From contig NZ_JAFGYF010000010.1 of assembly GCF_016921195.1 (NCBI RefSeq), positions 1 to 64,000 of the forward strand: DNA of 64,000 bases, in the 5' to 3' direction. Positions 1 through 61,704 of this stretch are shown piece by piece. Numbering within the stretch: position 1 is the stretch's first letter; each line of letters begins with the position of its first letter. Under the pieces are notes generated by a model. It did no database searches and had not been told where the DNA came from. It saw only the letters and a list, made by a program, of their open reading frames with translations. The DNA comes from Cellulosimicrobium cellulans (GTDB taxonomy: Bacteria > Actinomycetota > Actinomycetes > Actinomycetales > Cellulomonadaceae). A program made the position numbers and the translations under genes.

Positions 1-89
1 GTGGTGGTGCCGCGTCTACCATCCGCCGCTCGTTCCTCGCGGCTCCCGCCAGGCCCGACCACGACGCGGCACCACCACCCACCCCGCCC
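1..89 (+). repeat. Long-hairpin element, copy A (cut by window edge)
   Basis: Left stem 1-16 (its first ~11 bases lie outside the window), loop 17-62, right stem 63-89. The right stem is identical to that of the copy at 60536-60635, and the 46-nt loop differs from it by one base. The loop holds an inner hairpin (GCCGC / GCGGC around TCGTTCCTC). Similarity to the 60.5 kb copy continues to about position 115. No coding capacity is credible here. Confidence 0.8.
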
Positions 90-23605: not shown

Positions 23606-23678
23606 AACCGTGGCCACGACCGCTCCTCTACCTCGCGGCACCACGGTTCTCCCTCGCGAGACCACGGTTCTACCTCGG
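23596..23678. repeat. 21-bp repeat units, inverted pair inside the XPB operon
   Basis: One GAGGTAGAACCGTGG unit (23599-23613) and, in inverted orientation, three units ending CTACCTCG, CTCCCTCG and CTACCTCG. The RNA can fold into a hairpin between the helicase-associated gene and XPB. The first unit supplies the stop codon (TAG 23603-23605) of the upstream gene and the last unit ends 12 bases before the XPB ATG, next to its AAGGAG site. Confidence 0.85.
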
Positions 23679-28649: not shown

Positions 28650-28733
28650 CCTCGCGGGGACAACCCTGGACCCGCGAGGTGGAACCCTGGTTGCGCGAGG
28701 TAGAACCGTGGTCGGCCGAGGTAGAACCGTGGT
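28650..28733 (-). repeat. 21-bp repeat arm (left), four units
   Basis: Units start near 28650, 28671, 28692 and 28713; core GAGGTAGAACCGTGGT, the first unit being diverged. Immediately after the arm, 28731-28757 matches the bases following the left arm at 60.5 kb (GTTCTTGkGCTCGACGGCG). Confidence 0.88.
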
Positions 28734-28941
28734 TCTTGTGCTCGACGGCGCGTGGTCGGGGTGGGTGGTTGGTCGCCGGTCGCCGGGTGACCTCGCGGCT
28801 GAGCGGTGGGGGTGGGCTCGGATGCGACAGGGCGTCAGCGCGGCGCTCCAAAAGCCACGTCCGAGCGACCCGGGTGACGCGCCGCAGCCCCGAGCACCGA
28901 GGCCGCCCGCACCGCGGACCCGACCACGCGGGCCTGAGACC
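28734..28941. other. Spacer between inverted repeat arms
   Basis: About 208 bp without a credible gene. It begins with the shoulder sequence shared with the 60.5 kb element and contains GGGTGGGTGGT, part of the hairpin stem, but the conserved 46-nt loop is not recognisable. It looks like a decayed element centre. Confidence 0.5.
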
Positions 28942-29004
28942 CGACCACAGTTCTACCTCGACCAACCACAGTTCTACCTCGCGCAACCACGGTTCTACCT
29001 CGGC
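28942..29004 (+). repeat. 21-bp repeat arm (right), three units
   Basis: Units at 28942, 28963 and 28984 read ACCACAGTTCTACCTCG or ACCACGGTTCTACCTCG, inverted relative to the 28650-28733 arm. The two arms could pair over about 60 bp. Confidence 0.88.
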
Positions 29005-29043
29005 CGACCGGTGCGACCGCGCGGAGGGGATCGCGGCGTCGGG

Positions 29044-42084: not shown

Positions 42085-43319
42085 GCGGTCCTCCCGGAGG
42101 TCGCAGGGTCGTGGTCGACGGCGGTCTGTGGTTCGACCGTCGGGTTGCCGCTGCCCGGCTCACCCGTGCGCGCCGCGCCCGGGCGACTCCCGTCGGAGGT
42201 GCCGTCGTCCCCCGGGGCGGGCGCACCGCCGTCGGGCACGGAGCCGCGGCGCGAACGGCGCCACCGCGTGAACAGCTCGGCGAGCCCGCCGGGCAGGAAG
42301 GCGACGACGAGGATGAACAGAGCACCCTGGGCGTAGATCCAGCCGGACGGGAACGCCTCGGAGAGGCTCGTCTGCGCCCAGCTCACGGCGATCGACCCGA
42401 CCACCGGGCCGAGGAGTGTCGCCCGACCGCCGATCGCGACGCCGATGAGGAACCCGATGGACGGCACGACGCCCACGTCGGCCGGCGAGATGATGCCGAC
42501 GATCGGCACGAACAGCGCGCCGCCCACCGCGGCCATGAAGGCCGCGACCGCGTACGCGACGACCTTGACCTGCGCCGGGTCGTAGCCGAGGAACCGCACG
42601 CGGTTCTCCTGGTCGCGCACGGCGACGAGCAGCTCGCCGAACCGCGACACCATGAGCTGGCGCGCGACGGCGACCATGACGAGCAGCGCGCCTGCGGCGA
42701 GGAAGAAGAGCATGCGCTTGTTCACCGGGTCCGCGAGGTCGTACCCGAAGAACGACCGGAACCCGTTGAGGCCGTTGGTGCCGCCCGTCGTCGCCTGCTG
42801 ACCGATGAGCAGGATCGCGAACGCGGCCGCGAGCGCCTGCGAGAGGATCGCGAAGTAGGCACCGCGGACGCGCCGTGTGAAGACCGCGAACCCGAGCAGC
42901 GCCGCGAGGCCCGCGGGCACGACCGCGATGGCGAGGATCGTCACGACGGGCGACCGGAACGGCTCCCACCAGCCCGGGACCTCGCCCGAGCCGTAGAGCA
43001 TCATGAAGTCCGGCACGCCGCCCGGACCGGCGTCCGCGAGCTTGAGGTGCATCGCCATGATGTAGGCACCCAGACCGAAGAAGACGCCCTGCCCGAGGGT
43101 GAGCATCCCGCCCCGCCCCCACGCGAGGCCGATGCCGACCGCGACCATCGCGAGGCACAGGAACTTGCCGAGCAGGCCGAGGCGGAAGGTGGACAGCGTC
43201 GCGGGCGCGACGGCGAACAGCAGGACGGCCGCGACGGCGAACCCGACGATCACGCGGGCGCGCGAGGAGCGGTACAGGGCGGTGAGCCGGGAGGTCCTCC
43301 CGGTCGTGGCGGCGCTCAT
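42081..43319 (-). CDS. urtC: Urea ABC transporter permease UrtC
   Basis: 412-aa LivM-type permease with about ten membrane segments, e.g. VIVGFAVAAVLLFAVAPATL and FLCLAMVAVGIGLAWGRGGMLTLGQGVFFGLGAY. The segment TTGGTNGLNGFRSFFGYDLADPVNKRMLFF and the EAA-like RDQENRVRFLGYDPAQVKVVAYAVAAFMAAVGGAL are typical of UrtC. The last ~60 residues are a Pro/Gly/Ser-rich cytoplasmic tail. ATG 43319 overlaps the urtB stop by four bases. With UrtB it forms the membrane channel for urea. Confidence 0.94.
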   Translation of the reverse strand: MSAATTGRTSRLTALYRSSRARVIVGFAVAAVLLFAVAPATLSTFRLGLLGKFLCLAMVAVGIGLAWGRGGMLTLGQGVFFGLGAYIMAMHLKLADAGPGGVPDFMMLYGSGEVPGWWEPFRSPVVTILAIAVVPAGLAALLGFAVFTRRVRGAYFAILSQALAAAFAILLIGQQATTGGTNGLNGFRSFFGYDLADPVNKRMLFFLAAGALLVMVAVARQLMVSRFGELLVAVRDQENRVRFLGYDPAQVKVVAYAVAAFMAAVGGALFVPIVGIISPADVGVVPSIGFLIGVAIGGRATLLGPVVGSIAVSWAQTSLSEAFPSGWIYAQGALFILVVAFLPGGLAELFTRWRRSRRGSVPDGGAPAPGDDGTSDGSRPGAARTGEPGSGNPTVEPQTAVDHDPATSGRTA

Positions 43320-44200
43320 GCGAGGCTCCTCGTCCGGACCGACACGAGGCCCTGGGGTCGCACCTGGAGGAAGACGACGATGACGACGAACACGAGCACC
43401 TTGGCGATGCTCGCCGTCGTCGAGTACTCGAAGGTGGCCTGCAGCAGCCCGAGCGCGAACGCGGCGATGACCGTGCCCTTGATCTGCCCGATGCCGCCCG
43501 CGACGACGACGAGGAAGGCGTCGACGATGTAGCTCGTCCCCAGCGTCGGGCCGATCGACCCGAGCAGCGTGAGCGCAACGCCCGCGATCCCCGCGAGGCC
43601 CGAGCCGATGAAGAACGTCAGGCGGTCCGTCGCCCGCGTGGAGACGCCGCTCGCCTCCGCGAGGTCGCGGTTCTGCACGACGGCGCGGATCCGCCGACCG
43701 AGCGGCGTCACCTTGAGCACGACGGCCAGGGCGATGACCGCGACGACCGCGAGCGCGAGGATGAAGAGGCGCGTCTTGGGCACGGCCAGGCCGAACAGGT
43801 CGACGGCGCCGCTCAGCCAGGCCGGGGCGCGCACGTCGACGTTCGGGGCGCCGAACACGTCGCGCGCGACCTGCTGCAGCACGAGCGCGACGCCCCACGT
43901 GACGAGGAGCGTGTCGAGCGGCCGCTTGTACATGCGGTGGATGAGCGTCGCCTCGAGCAGCAGCCCGAGCAGACCGCCGACGAGGAACCCGAGCGGCAGC
44001 GACACGAGCAACGAGACGCCGGCGTTGCCGACGACCCCCTGCACGACGAACGCCGTGTAGGCGCCCGCCATCATGAACTCGCCGTGCGCCATGTTGATGA
44101 CGCCCATCTGGCCGAACGTGAGCGCCAGCCCGAGGGCGGCGAGGAGCAGGACCGAGCCGAGGCTCAGCCCCGCGAAGAGCTGCGAGAACAGCACATCCAT
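43316..44200 (-). CDS. urtB: Urea ABC transporter permease UrtB
   Basis: 294-aa LivH-type permease, about eight membrane helices. LGLALTFGQMGVINMAHGEFMMAGAY (about residues 24-49) and EATLIHRMYKRPLDTLLVTWGVALVLQQ are UrtB signatures, and NRDLAEASGVSTRATDRLTFFIGSGLAGIAGVAL is the cytoplasmic coupling region. ATG 44200 has GGAAGG upstream. A 190-bp gap with a very long perfect hairpin separates it from urtA, probably lowering expression of the membrane genes relative to the binding protein. Confidence 0.95.
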   Translation of the reverse strand: MDVLFSQLFAGLSLGSVLLLAALGLALTFGQMGVINMAHGEFMMAGAYTAFVVQGVVGNAGVSLLVSLPLGFLVGGLLGLLLEATLIHRMYKRPLDTLLVTWGVALVLQQVARDVFGAPNVDVRAPAWLSGAVDLFGLAVPKTRLFILALAVVAVIALAVVLKVTPLGRRIRAVVQNRDLAEASGVSTRATDRLTFFIGSGLAGIAGVALTLLGSIGPTLGTSYIVDAFLVVVAGGIGQIKGTVIAAFALGLLQATFEYSTTASIAKVLVFVVIVVFLQVRPQGLVSVRTRSLA

Positions 44201-44261
44201 GGGCGTCGTGCCTTCCGGTGGGTGCGTAGCAGGACGGGTGACGTGACCGCCGAGGTGGGGG

Positions 44262-44352
44262 CCGGGGGTGTGCGTGCCGGGTCGTGGCGGGACTGGCGGG
44301 AGCCCGCGAGGAACGAGCGGGCGGATGGTAGACCCGGCACGCACACCCCCGG
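44262..44352 (-). repeat. Long-hairpin element, copy B, inside the urt operon
   Basis: Perfect 22-bp stem (44262-44283 with 44331-44352) around a 47-nt loop (44284-44330). Read on the minus strand (the mRNA sense of urt), the loop matches that of copies A and C, with small differences. The outer stem is a different sequence from A and C but fully complementary, and the inner hairpin gains one pair (GCCCGC / GCGGGC versus GCCGC / GCGGC). It lies between urtA and urtB, where it could act as an attenuator or an mRNA 3'-end stabiliser for urtA. Confidence 0.88.
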
Positions 44353-44390: not shown

Positions 44391-45656
44391 TCAGGAGAGG
44401 CCCTCGGCCCAGTCGTAGCCCTCGAGGTACGGGTCGGGCTCGATCGGCTCGCCCGAGCTCCACTCGGTGTAGATGAGGCCGTCGGGACCGATCTTGCCGA
44501 TGAGCGCGGTCTTGGCGATGTGGTGGTTGTCGCCGTTCACGGTGACGGGCCCCTCGGGCGCGTCGACGGTGACGCCGTCGGCGGCCTCCTGGACGTCGGC
44601 GACGTCGAACGACTCGGCCTTCTCGACCATGCCCTTCCAGAGGTAGAGCGAGGTGTACGCCGCCTCCATCGGGTCGGACGTCACGCGGTCGGCGCCGTAC
44701 TCGGCCTGGAACGCCTCGACGAACGTCGCGTTCTCGGGGCTGTCGATGGTCTGGTAGTAGTTCCAGGCCGTGAGCTGACCCTCGACGTTCTCGACGCCGA
44801 CACCGCCCACCTCCTCCTCGGCGATCGACACCGACACGACGGGCATCGTGTCCGGGCCGAGGCCCGCGTTCTTGTACTCCTTGAAGAACGCCACGTTGGA
44901 GTCGCCGTTGAGCGTGTTGAACACGGCGTCCGCACCGGCGGACTTCACCTTGTTGACGATCGTGGAGAAGTCGGTGTGGCCGAGCGGCGCATACTCCTCG
45001 CCGAGGACCTCGATGCCGTTCGCCTCCGCGTAGGCGTTGATGATCTTGTTCGCGGTGCGCGGGAAGACGTAGTCGGAGCCGACGAGGAAGATCGACGTGA
45101 CCCCCTGCTCCTTGAGGTAGTCGAGCGCGGGGACGATCTGCTGGTTGGTCGTGGCGCCGGTGTAGAAGATGTTCGGCGACGACTCGAGGCCCTCGTACTG
45201 GACCGGGTAGAAGAGCAGCGAGTCCTGCGCCTCGAAGACGGGGAGCATCGCCTTGCGCGACGCGGACGTCCAGCCGCCGAACACCGCGGCGACGCAGTCG
45301 CTCGTGATGAGCTTCTCCGCCTTCTCGGCGAAGACCGTGGGCTCGGACTGGCCGTCCTCCTGGACGATCTCGAGCTGCTTGCCGAGCACGCCCCCGTCGG
45401 CGTTGATCTCCTCGGCGGCGAGGGCGAGGGAGTCGGCGACGGTCTGCTCGGAGATCGCCATGGTGCCGGAGAGCGAGTTGAGGAAGCCGATCTTGACGGT
45501 GTCGCCGGAGGTGTCGACGCAGCTCTCGGCGGCGCTGGTCGCGGCGCCCGCACCGTCGCCGGTCTCGGTCCTCGCGCCGCACGCGGCGAGCGTGAGCGCG
45601 AGGACGACGAGAGCGGCGGCCGGGGCGAGACGGGTCGTGGCGCGTGAAGGTGTCAC
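44391..45656 (-). CDS. urtA: Urea ABC transporter substrate-binding lipoprotein UrtA
   Basis: 421-aa periplasmic-type binding protein (type I fold) anchored as a lipoprotein: signal LAPAAALVVLALTLAACG with lipobox LAAC. Mature part has VKIGFLNSLSGTMAISEQTVADSLALAAEEIN, CVAAVFGGWTSASRKAMLPVFE and LLFYPVQYEGLESSPNIFYTGATTNQQI, all UrtA-specific. It captures urea for UrtBCDE. GTG start 45656 with AAAGGA upstream. A GTGTATACGA palindrome lies 110 bp upstream. As first gene of the operon it should be the most highly expressed. Confidence 0.96.
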   Translation of the reverse strand: MTPSRATTRLAPAAALVVLALTLAACGARTETGDGAGAATSAAESCVDTSGDTVKIGFLNSLSGTMAISEQTVADSLALAAEEINADGGVLGKQLEIVQEDGQSEPTVFAEKAEKLITSDCVAAVFGGWTSASRKAMLPVFEAQDSLLFYPVQYEGLESSPNIFYTGATTNQQIVPALDYLKEQGVTSIFLVGSDYVFPRTANKIINAYAEANGIEVLGEEYAPLGHTDFSTIVNKVKSAGADAVFNTLNGDSNVAFFKEYKNAGLGPDTMPVVSVSIAEEEVGGVGVENVEGQLTAWNYYQTIDSPENATFVEAFQAEYGADRVTSDPMEAAYTSLYLWKGMVEKAESFDVADVQEAADGVTVDAPEGPVTVNGDNHHIAKTALIGKIGPDGLIYTEWSSGEPIEPDPYLEGYDWAEGLS

Positions 45657-45899: not shown

Positions 45900-46060
45900 G
45901 CCGAGGTAGTCCCCCGGTAGCGCGAGGTAGAACCCTGGTCGCCGAGAGAGAGCCCTGGGCCGGCGAGGTAGAACCGCGGTCCGCCGAGGTAGAACGCTGG
46001 TGTCGAGCGATCTGGAACAAGCTCTCTACCTCGCGGTACCAGGGCTCTATCTCGCGACTA
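45900..46060. repeat. 21-bp repeat arms upstream of the GNAT gene
   Basis: Five GAGGTAG-type units on one strand (GAGG or GAGA at 45903, 45924, 45945, 45965, 45986) followed by two inverted units (CTACCTCG about 46026, CTATCTCG about 46048). Units are more diverged than at 46.7 kb. The last unit runs into the promoter region of the GNAT gene. Confidence 0.82.
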
Positions 46061-46640: not shown

Positions 46641-46766
46641 CGACCAGGTATCTCCCTCGGCCAACCAGAGTTCTACCTCGCGCGACCACGGTTCTACCTC
46701 GCGCGGCCACGGTTCTACCTCGCGCGGCCACGGTTCTACCTCGCGCGACCACGGTTCTCCCTCGCA
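46641..46766 (+). repeat. 21-bp repeat arm, six tandem units
   Basis: Six units of exactly 21 bp (starts 46641, 46662, 46683, 46704, 46725, 46746). The middle four are nearly identical with core CCACGGTTCTACCTCG. The array stops ten bases before the nikMN stop codon on the other strand. The units are contiguous without spacers. Confidence 0.92.
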
Positions 46767-59490: not shown

Positions 59491-59623
59491 CGTTCCCTCC
59501 CTGCACTCTCTCGTCACGGGACCTGCGCACCCCGGTGCGTCTGGCCGCCTCTCAGGGTACGCACGAACCACACGGGTGTCATTCGTCCCCGCCGGAGTCC
59601 GCCGAGGCCCTCCGCGCGCCGGA

Positions 59624-59629
59624 TAGGCT
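59624..59629 (+). promoter_or_regulatory. -10 element TAGGCT, leaderless ung
   Basis: TAGGCT ends seven bases before GTG 59637, the chosen ung start; no Shine-Dalgarno. Confidence 0.5.
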
Positions 59630-59636
59630 CGGTGCC

Positions 59637-60392
59637 GTGGAGAGCGCACCCGCCCAGCCCGTCGACGTCGGTCCGGGCAGCACCCCGGCCGGCACCGATC
59701 CGACGCCGAGCCCTCGCCCCCCGCTCGCGAGCATCATGGCGCCCGACTGGGCCCAGGCCCTCGCGCCGGTCGAGCCGCAGCTCCACGCGCTCGGGGACTT
59801 CCTGCGCGCGGAGGTCGCGGCCGGTCGGGAGTACCTGCCCGCGCCGTCGGCGATCCTCAACGCCTTCTCGCGCCCGCTCGCGGACGTGCGCGTGCTCGTC
59901 GTCGGACAGGACCCCTACCCGACGCCGGGGCACCCGATGGGGCTGTCGTTCTCCGTGCAGCCGCACGTGCGCCCGGTGCCGCGCTCGCTCCAGAACATCT
60001 TCGCGGAGCTCGCGGAGGACGTCGGCGCCCCCACGCCCGCGAACGGCGACCTCACCGCGTGGAGCGACCAGGGCGTCATGCTCCTCAACAGGGTGCTCAC
60101 CGTCCGCCCGGGCGAGCCGGGTTCGCACCGCGGCCAGGGCTGGGAGGCCGTCACGGAGGCCGCGATCCGGGCGCTCGTCGCCCGCGACGCCCCGCTCGTC
60201 GCGATCCTGTGGGGCCGCGACGCCGCGACGCTGCGCCCGATGCTCGGCGACACTCCCGTCGTCGCGAGCGCCCACCCGAGCCCGCTCTCCGCGCGCCGCG
60301 GGTTCTTCGGCTCCCGCCCGTTCTCCCGCGTCAACGAGCTCCTCGTCGCCCAGGGCGCCGACCCTGTCGACTGGACCCTCCCGACGGCGTAG
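59637..60392 (+). CDS. ung: Uracil-DNA glycosylase
   Basis: 251-aa family 1 uracil-DNA glycosylase removing uracil from DNA at the first step of base excision repair. Motifs: water-activating [20 protein letters not shown] (Asp about residue 89), and uracil-binding/minor-groove loop [21 protein letters not shown] (about 210-230). A ~35-residue Pro/Ser/Thr-rich leader precedes the conserved core. GTG 59637 is supported by the leaderless promoter. The 21-bp repeat arm begins within ten bases after the stop. Confidence 0.96.
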
Positions 60393-60400
60393 GCCCACCC

Positions 60401-60505
60401 GCCGCGGGAGAACCTCGGTCACCCACGGAGAACCGTCGTCACGCGAGGTAGAGCCGTGGTCCGCCGAGGTAGAGCCGTGGTCGCGCGAGGTAGAGCCGTG
60501 GTTCT
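60401..60505 (-). repeat. 21-bp repeat arm (left), five units
   Basis: Five units; the last three (GAGG at 60445, 60466, 60487) are regular 21-bp copies reading GAGGTAGAGCCGTGGT, the first two are diverged and slightly shorter. Followed directly by the shoulder sequence and the long hairpin element. Confidence 0.88.
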
Positions 60506-60535
60506 TGGGCTCGACGGCGTGTGGTCGCCCTGGGT

Positions 60536-60635
60536 GGGCGGGGTGGGTGGTGGTGCCGCGTCTACCATCCGCCGCTCGTTCCTCGCGGCTCGCGCCAGGC
60601 CCGACCACGACGCGGCACCACCACCCACCCCGCCC
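60536..60635 (+). repeat. Long-hairpin element, copy C
   Basis: Perfect 27-bp stem (60536-60562 with 60609-60635) around a 46-nt loop (60563-60608). The loop contains an inner hairpin GCCGC / GCGGC around TCGTTCCTC. The visible part is virtually identical to copy A at 1-89; the loop is shared with copy B at 44.3 kb. It is centred between inverted 21-bp arms (60401-60505 and 60743-60802). Confidence 0.92.
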
Positions 60636-60742
60636 GGCGTCGTCTCGCCCTGGTCGTCACTCACCCGGGTGACCGCCCGCGGGGTCCGGTGTGCCCAACG
60701 CCTCGTCGCCACCGTGCGCCCGGGACCAGCCACCGCAAGACT
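60636..60742. other. Element spacer, no gene
   Basis: The first ~25 bases match the sequence after copy A (GTCTCGCCCTGGTC). It contains ACTCACCCGGGTGACC, a short palindrome. No coding potential. Confidence 0.4.
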
Positions 60743-60802
60743 CACAGGTTCTACCTCGCGCGACCGCGGTCCTGCCTCGCGCGACCGGGATCCGCTCGGC
60801 GG
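60743..60802 (+). repeat. 21-bp repeat arm (right), three units, diverged
   Basis: AGGTTCTACCTCGCG, then units at 60761 and 60782 (GCGGTCCTGCCTCGCG, then a degenerate copy). Inverted with respect to the 60401-60505 arm. Confidence 0.75.
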
Positions 60803-60834
60803 GGGCACAGCGGTGGTGGGAGCAGAATGGGCGG

Positions 60835-61704
60835 GTGACGACGCAGAACCCGACGACCACTCCCCTGGCCGGTGACGCCTCCGACGCACGCCGAGCCGAC
60901 GACGCCCCGCCCCGTTGGACGAGCTACGTCGCGATCGGCGACTCGTTCACCGAGGGCCTGTGGGACCCCTACCCCGGTGAGGAGGACCACCAGCGCGGCT
61001 GGGCCGACCTCCTCGCGCAGCACCTCGCGGCTCGACGCGTCGCGGCGGGAGAGGAGCCGCTGCGCTACGCGAACCTCGCGATCCGCGGACGCAAGCTGCG
61101 CTCGATCCTCACCGAGCAGGTCCCGACGGCGCTGGAGCTGAAGCCGGACCTCGTGAGCATCATCGGCGGCGGCAACGACATCCTGCGGCCGAACGCCGAC
61201 GTCGACCGGCTCGCGCGCAACCTCGAGCACGCCGTGGCGCGCCTGCGCGGGGCGGGGATCGACGTGCTCATGGCGACCGGCTTCGACGCCTCGCAGTCGC
61301 CGCTCGTGAGCCTCACGCGCCCGCGCGTCGGGGTGTACAACGCGCACATCTGGTCGATCGCGCGCCGCCAGGGTGCGTACGTGCTCGACCTGTGGGGCAT
61401 GCGCGCGCTCCAGGACTGGCGGGTGTGGTCGGAGGACCGCATCCACCTGACGCCCGAGGGCCACCGGCGGGTCGCGCAGGCGGCGCTCGTCGGGCTGGGG
61501 CAGGCGCCCGACGACGCGGCGTGGGACGACCCGCTCGCTCCCCTCCCGCCGCTCCCGGCGCTGGACCGGGCGCGGCAGAACGCGCAGTGGGTGCGCACGC
61601 ACGTCGTGCCGTGGGCGCAACGCCGGATCCGGGGGACGTCGTCGGGCGACGGCCGGCTCCCCAAGGCACCCGAGCTCCTCCCGGTGCCGCTCGCCGACCG
61701 CTGA
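60835..61704 (+). CDS. SGNH/GDSL-family hydrolase
   Basis: 289-aa esterase/lipase-fold hydrolase. Block I YVAIGDSFTEGL with nucleophile Ser (about residue 37), block II LAIRGRKLR, block III IGGGNDILRP (Gly and Asn of the oxyanion hole), block V DRIHLTPEGHRRVA (Asp and His, about 207-210). No signal peptide, so probably cytoplasmic. GTG 60835 follows CAGAAT by six bases, again leaderless-like. The C-terminal ~60 residues are Pro/Arg-rich. Substrate is not predictable (acyl or acetyl esters). Confidence 0.9.
   Translation: MTTQNPTTTPLAGDASDARRADDAPPRWTSYVAIGDSFTEGLWDPYPGEEDHQRGWADLLAQHLAARRVAAGEEPLRYANLAIRGRKLRSILTEQVPTALELKPDLVSIIGGGNDILRPNADVDRLARNLEHAVARLRGAGIDVLMATGFDASQSPLVSLTRPRVGVYNAHIWSIARRQGAYVLDLWGMRALQDWRVWSEDRIHLTPEGHRRVAQAALVGLGQAPDDAAWDDPLAPLPPLPALDRARQNAQWVRTHVVPWAQRRIRGTSSGDGRLPKAPELLPVPLADR

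Follow-up and report, generated by a model that had tools for sequence, protein, structure and literature searches.

A dispersed, apparently undescribed family of palindromic elements with a constant loop and variable arms in Cellulosimicrobium cellulans and its relatives

Analysis of a 64,000-nucleotide stretch of the Cellulosimicrobium cellulans genome (hereafter the window) revealed that three long palindromes within it belong to an apparently undescribed family of dispersed elements, in which a loop of ~47 bases is held nearly constant between arms that differ from copy to copy and remain complementary. The best reading is a new palindromic repeat family resembling Rickettsia palindromic elements (RPEs) and MITEs, with RPE-like insertions, evolution of the arms resembling template switching, and a selected loop. 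We consider it somewhat more probable than an even chance that these palindromes spread slowly, that their arms are self-corrected in DNA and that the loop is under selection. A literature search yielded no description of the element, the papers containing inner-loop strings appearing unrelated as judged by title. No Rfam 15 family matched the element in the window at gathering threshold, and at E up to 1 five loci gave two weak matches, both far below gathering scores.

Anatomy and distribution of the element

Each copy is a long inverted repeat enclosing the loop, which itself contains an inner hairpin, for a total of ~100-110 bases with an arm of up to ~30 bp. Read in the sense direction, the consensus consists of an arm ending in GTC, TWCCATCC, an inner stem of 5-7 bp, a nine-base apex (TCGTYCCTC), CTCCCGCCAGRCCCRCCAC, and GAC followed by the second arm. 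In 61 of 96 copies of one arm class, group II, the loop is adjoined by 17-30 bp of unbroken Watson-Crick pairing; the 96 were collected with a search pattern that misses diverged copies, copy C among them. All three copies described by the first-pass annotation were recovered from the sequence (Table 1), copy A being incomplete because the window starts at the end of contig C2. As that annotation had claimed, the arm of copy B differs from that of A and C yet pairs, and the inner hairpin reads GCCGC/GCGGC in A and C versus GCCCGC/GCGGGC in B.

Table 1. Positions of element copies and other features in the window
Feature	Position	Strand	Remarks
Copy A, group I arm	1-89	+	Loop with closing GTC/GAC 14-65; 5' arm cut at contig end
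Copy B, group II arm	44262-44352	-	Loop with closing GTC/GAC 44281-44333; between urtA and urtB
urtA	44391-45656	-	Gene on one side of copy B
urtB	43316-44203	-	Gene on the other side of copy B
Copy C, group I arm	60536-60635	+	Loop with closing GTC/GAC 60560-60611; downstream of ung
Larger group I repeated unit around copy C	60429-60686	+	Many matches to positions ~930-1187 of the query, window 59500-61700
21-bp tandem repeats left of copy C	60429-60502	+	GCGCGAGGTAGAACCGTGGTC type
21-bp repeats, inverted, right of copy C	60747-60793	-	GCGCGAGGTAGAACCGTGGTC type
Other 21-bp arrays	374-440, 23627-23677, 28662-28733, 28944-29009, 45900-45995, 46641-46765		GCGCGAGGTAGAACCGTGGTC type
One-arm relic of a group I copy	28752-28772	+	Orthologous place in G004 (L095) has a full copy
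c-di-AMP riboswitch (ydaO/yuaA type), RF00379	4435-4595	-	Rfam match in the window

Group I copies are embedded in a larger unit of ~258 bp, made up of 21-bp repeats, left flank, palindrome and right flank. The 21-bp repeats form a minisatellite of short arrays, often in inverted pairs, and such pairs enclose copy C, the relic at 28.75 kb and the stretch at 46.0-46.6 kb. As a separate observation, 16 of the 96 group II copies (for example L249, L254, L259, L264 and L272) have TCC at the foot of each arm. In 21 TCC-hinge copies the arm measured 18-19 bp in 14, 26-27 bp in two and 29-30 bp in five, the uninterrupted arms falling mostly into two lengths (18-19 and 29-30 bp) that are separated by roughly one turn of the helix.

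Seven folds of five copies (L002 and L031, which is copy B, on both strands; L032, L042 and L043 on one) were stronger than expected by chance, with z from -5.1 to -9.2 and none of 200 shuffles equalling them. For L002, a group I copy, the minimum-energy fold replaced the inner hairpin with another pairing inside the loop; the predicted inner hairpin rests on covariation.

The first-pass annotation had suggested a covariance-model search of this and related genomes. A model built from 13 copies (R1) found 48 places at E < 1e-4 in the home draft genome, a count that may include some copies twice because a single copy may be split across two contig ends; the remaining 28 R1 rows at E up to 1 comprised 25 reverse-strand matches to known places and three weak ones. 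Of the 46 contig ends in this draft, no fewer than 17 lie inside element copies, a practical consequence being that the element breaks draft assemblies. Among relatives, 22 of 59 genomes gave matches, including all 17 of the genus, with 12-77 copies per congener, and five of 42 others. Searches with a second model built from 67 copies (R2), which used strict filters and scored 20 or 11 candidates per genome, found the element in 60 of 221 genomes and 11 of 25 genera of the family, and in 24 of 396 genomes drawn from the order, where carriers were patchy and spread over five families; of 396 genomes drawn from the phylum, the home genome alone matched. The possibilities that only the three copies exist, lacking relatives and covariation, or that the stems are those of a known terminator or IS end, which the annotation had named as fatal to its proposal, were not borne out. 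A mobile carrier was considered and rejected: the exact core pattern occurred zero times in viral_contigs, phages gave no match, and plasmids gave one weak half-match (Embleya, 78.6% over 49% of the query).

Arm covariation and wobble pairs

Covariation was evaluated in an alignment of 67 chosen copies with 1737 pair cells, from which 15 loci whose copies were variant, damaged or cut, together with one further locus lacking a recognised end, had been left out beforehand and an additional 12 of 79 offered rows had been removed as near duplicates or not needed. In this alignment 96.1% of cells were paired versus 66.0% after shuffling, double-change cells numbered 440 versus 125, and the covariation score was 0.646 versus 0.142 and was lost when the arms were slid by one to three columns. 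Two weaker measures moved less: 24 pairs with a double change versus 20.8 (reached by three of 500 shuffles) and 60 pair types versus 56.2 (reached by 66 of 500). Sixty-four of the 67 copies carried distinct 5' arms, and mean pairwise identity was 0.59 for the arms and 0.50 for the inner stem, compared to 0.95 for the unpaired loop. Some arms were shared between loci of one genome (L250 with L252, and L254 with L257). The stems thus covary as the first-pass annotation had proposed, pairing persisting as the sequence changes.

The non-Watson-Crick pairs suggest how this pairing is maintained. Ordinary hairpins at the 3' ends of genes were taken as the wobble control because tRNA stems gave just two distinct tRNAs; 99 such hairpins came from 321 core-free gene ends of the fetched loci, with an equal score for all non-Watson-Crick pairs. 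These controls contained 1580 Watson-Crick, 61 G.T, 32 A.C and 66 other cells, versus 1661, 9, 24 and 43, respectively, in the element alignment, so that G.T made up 3.5% of control cells and 0.5% of element cells. Likewise, the 96 unselected group II copies, scored over 18 pairs (1728 cells), contained 1640 Watson-Crick, 8 G.T, 29 A.C and 51 other cells. The ratio of G.T to A.C differed between element and control (p 2e-4), and within the element A.C exceeded G.T (24 vs 9, p 0.014). Ordinary 3' hairpins are therefore enriched in G.T, as selection on the sense transcript would predict, and the element is not. The complementarity of the element seems to be upheld at the level of DNA, and template switching from arm to arm would be the simplest means. 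Such switching is a documented route to perfect stems with multiple compensatory changes (PMC8794818); double changes without wobble intermediates are what the element displays. Alternatively, the preponderance of A.C could mean selection on RNA of the other strand, since a sense A.C reads as G.U there. Of the ideas put forward by the first-pass annotation, a copied element with homogenised ends best fits this dominance of double changes and near absence of G.T.

Genomic positions, in-frame copies and age

Placement was analysed for 146 copies flanked on both sides by 700 bases or more, found with the search pattern described above and an in-house gene-calling script; the set includes orthologues and its members are not independent. 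Taking + as the loop direction, group II copies between genes lay in ++ (34), +- (24), -- (14) and -+ (3) arrangements, 14 of 75 thus being antisense to both neighbours, and group I copies in ++ (9), +- (18), -- (9) and -+ (2) arrangements. A stop codon in sense orientation lay within 75 nt of 38 group II copies, and one in antisense orientation within that distance of four. Group II shares with intrinsic terminators a position 3' of genes in the sense direction. The T-run expected after a terminator stem was generally not seen by eye, L253 being the only one of the right flanks inspected that starts with TTTT. Neighbouring genes named by NCBIfam were urtA, urtB, nrdE, infB, rbfA, ung and gyrB, the infB and gyrB names resting on partial proteins below the curated cut-off.

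In six places two copies of opposite direction lay close together; three of these pairs were between convergent genes, with each copy following its own gene (L204, L205 and L207), and another was inside a predicted frame (L206). A nucleoid-protein site, another suggestion of the first-pass annotation, received no support, in that no nucleoid-type layout was seen and orientation, as judged by eye, followed no simple rule in G008, G011 and G025. Replication polarity was likewise rejected, with no consistent rule by eye in the same three genomes when the origin was assumed at base 1; in G013, contigs carried copies mostly in one direction.

Group II copies also overlapped open frames, 26 in sense and four in antisense, although some of these frames are perhaps spurious. 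Frames ran through copies in four Pfam-named proteins: a PcrA/UvrD-type helicase, with the copy between the UvrD_C and tudor domains, where the linker of mycobacterial UvrD1 is shorter; a DUF3418 protein; a biotin carboxylase, in which right halves are repeated; and an ABC ATPase. The consensus loop is free of stop codons in all three sense frames. Thus, as in RPEs, a palindromic unit occurs in frame within unrelated conserved genes. Arm or half-element units were tandemly amplified beside the palindrome at L254 and L268, the latter within the biotin carboxylase frame.

Comparison across species showed that some positions are old and that one is occupied in some species and empty in others. 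After nrdE, a copy was found in seven genomes of six genera, with arms that differ except in G004 and G177, which belong to different genera and have the same arm; the copy in G034 has a variant centre. At infB-rbfA, six genomes had a copy or a shortened-centre variant that keeps CCAGRCCCRCCAC or nearly so. Orthologous copies lay between urtA and urtB in G000, G016, G011, G006, G010, G009 and G012, and the copy in G013 has its inner hairpin deleted. Relative to G000, the 22 arm pairs of G010 had changed on both sides in four cases and on one side in one, with one loop change, G012 had two two-sided and one one-sided arm change with two loop changes, and G009 had one one-sided arm change; the two-sided changes included CG>AT, and the loop differed at 0-2 of 47 positions. 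The nearest named UrtA records were from Cellulomonas (80-82%), and R2 matched none of four Cellulomonas loci, at which ordinary hairpins were read in the sequence after urtA.

By reading of the copy C site in 17 congeners, one had a group I copy, eleven had no copy, G012 and G015 had a copy with another arm in the opposite direction, and G005, G006 and G001 had loop-less relics. The first-pass annotation had recommended seeking empty sites in sister strains; no clean one was found. In the spacer after ung of five genomes (L353, L354, L357, L358 and L359 in G004, G011, G002, G010 and G009, respectively), a different palindrome was observed, with an arm of the CCGAGCAGGTGGTCCTGGC type and a similar loop around CGTCCGCGCCGCGTGACGC, perhaps representing a second family in which the loop is conserved.

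Competing explanations and relation to known systems

In the explanation that we favour, copies would reach new sites at a low rate, mostly directly 3' of stop codons in the sense direction and at times in frame within protein linkers. The arms would stay complementary through self-templated correction in DNA, by replication template switching from one arm to the other, and arm sequence would therefore drift as a unit. Selection would preserve the loop as the target of a putative mobilising enzyme or host factor, to which the hairpin would present it either as DNA or within the transcript; the constancy of the loop suggests such a candidate binding partner. The case for mobility in this account depends on the in-frame copies and on a single site that differs in occupancy between species, and no enzyme, clear target duplication or cleanly bounded insertion was found in the loci and carriers examined. 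Counting against it are the one-sided arm changes at urtA-urtB, the two covariation measures that differ little from shuffles, the chosen composition of the 67-copy alignment and the preponderance of A.C over G.T. In addition, template switching should invert the loop as well, and copies of opposite direction at an orthologous site were seen at one place, that of copy C. A more specific proposal, which we regard as less likely than not, is a new class of mobile or domesticated element in which the ~47-base loop is the sole recognised part, borne on an arbitrary, Watson-Crick-perfect arm that is rewritten as a unit when either side is copied from the other. Pairing would then be inherited as a shape instead of a sequence, and the putative factor would recognise the displayed loop in DNA to bring about movement, or in RNA at the ends of genes.

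The strongest competitor, which we think unlikely, is a cis-acting structured RNA at 3' ends and between genes of operons, whose conserved, C-rich loop would bind a protein or RNA and control termination, processing or stability, the family having grown by duplication with incidental mobility. The sense direction close to stop codons, the old positions after nrdE, at infB-rbfA and at urtA-urtB, the ordinary hairpins that relatives have at urtA-urtB and a loop much more conserved than the arms are all consistent with such a function. In contrast, the scarcity of sense-strand G.T relative to A.C is the opposite of what control hairpins show, and neither the intergenic group II copies antisense to both neighbours nor the copies translated through in the PcrA-like, DUF3418, biotin carboxylase and ABC proteins would be expected of it.

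A conventional MITE, mobilised in trans by the transposase of an IS that has the arms as its terminal inverted repeats, appears improbable. Numerous group I copies do share arm and flanks over ~258 bp, and presence or absence between species speaks for it, but a transposase needs conserved ends, whereas here the ends vary around a constant centre and conserved terminal inverted repeats are found within group I only. Moreover, no clear target duplication was seen, TCC on both sides occurring in only the 16 of 96 group II copies noted above, which are partly related.

Very improbable in our estimation is movement of the loop by itself into the loops of ordinary 3' hairpins, which would make each arm the terminator stem of its host gene. 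Such movement could account for arms that differ between loci, for the fixed distance from the stop codon and for the ordinary hairpin in the same place after urtA in the named relatives. However, arms are common to different loci of one genome, group I shares arm and flanks, and orthologues with an identical arm but no loop were not found, save the deletion-like relics at the copy C site. In copies with the TCC hinge, which had prompted this idea, pairing beyond TCC extended over 6.1 of 9 positions, as it did in other copies (6.1), versus 4.3 in a swapped control. Finally, mobilisation as a REP element by a RAYT (Y1) transposase, in line with the first-pass suggestion of a REP-like palindrome moved in trans, can be dismissed as a negligible prospect despite the multicopy, palindromic and mostly intergenic character of the element, in that the transposase search, which covered Y1_Tnp, gave no match in 27 carrier genomes at E 0.001 and was positive in five of 14 known genomes used as a control, and both stem and loop exceed published REP ranges.

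Change at paired bases, whether singly via G.U or jointly by copying of one arm, is usually argued from single loci. A family with many arms per genome on one fixed loop, present in many species, makes the rate, size and direction of arm rewriting measurable and provides a natural test case for how hairpins stay intact in evolution. If the loop has a binding partner, the element would represent a new mobile-element or nucleic-acid-binding system of Actinomycetes.

Several known systems resemble the element in part. Like bacterial MITEs, it is a non-coding, dispersed inverted-repeat unit present or absent between species, but its ends vary while its centre is conserved, no clear target duplication was seen, and a search for Y1_Tnp revealed no parent IS. 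The double-hairpin elements of fungal mitochondria are likewise mobile hairpins with a kept structure, but they are mitochondrial and consist of two hairpins. As described in PMC10969869, RPEs are short palindromic units of ~150 bp found between genes and in frame within unrelated conserved proteins. Our element shares both locations and differs from that account in its length of ~100-110 bases, its constant centre with free arms and the position of most copies 3' of genes. REP elements and BIMEs with RAYT are also multicopy palindromes lying mostly outside genes; PMC3733652 gives REPs a stem of 5-13 bp, a loop of 2-20 bp and GTAG or CGTC at one end, in contrast to the ~47-nt loop of our element and its arm, which is at least 17 bp without interruption in 61 of 96 group II copies. 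The evolution of the arms parallels that of template-switched hairpins, which, as described in PMC8794818, also show perfect complementarity and multiple compensatory changes; the stems reported there belong to RNA genes, whereas our element forms a dispersed family with much longer arms and one fixed loop.
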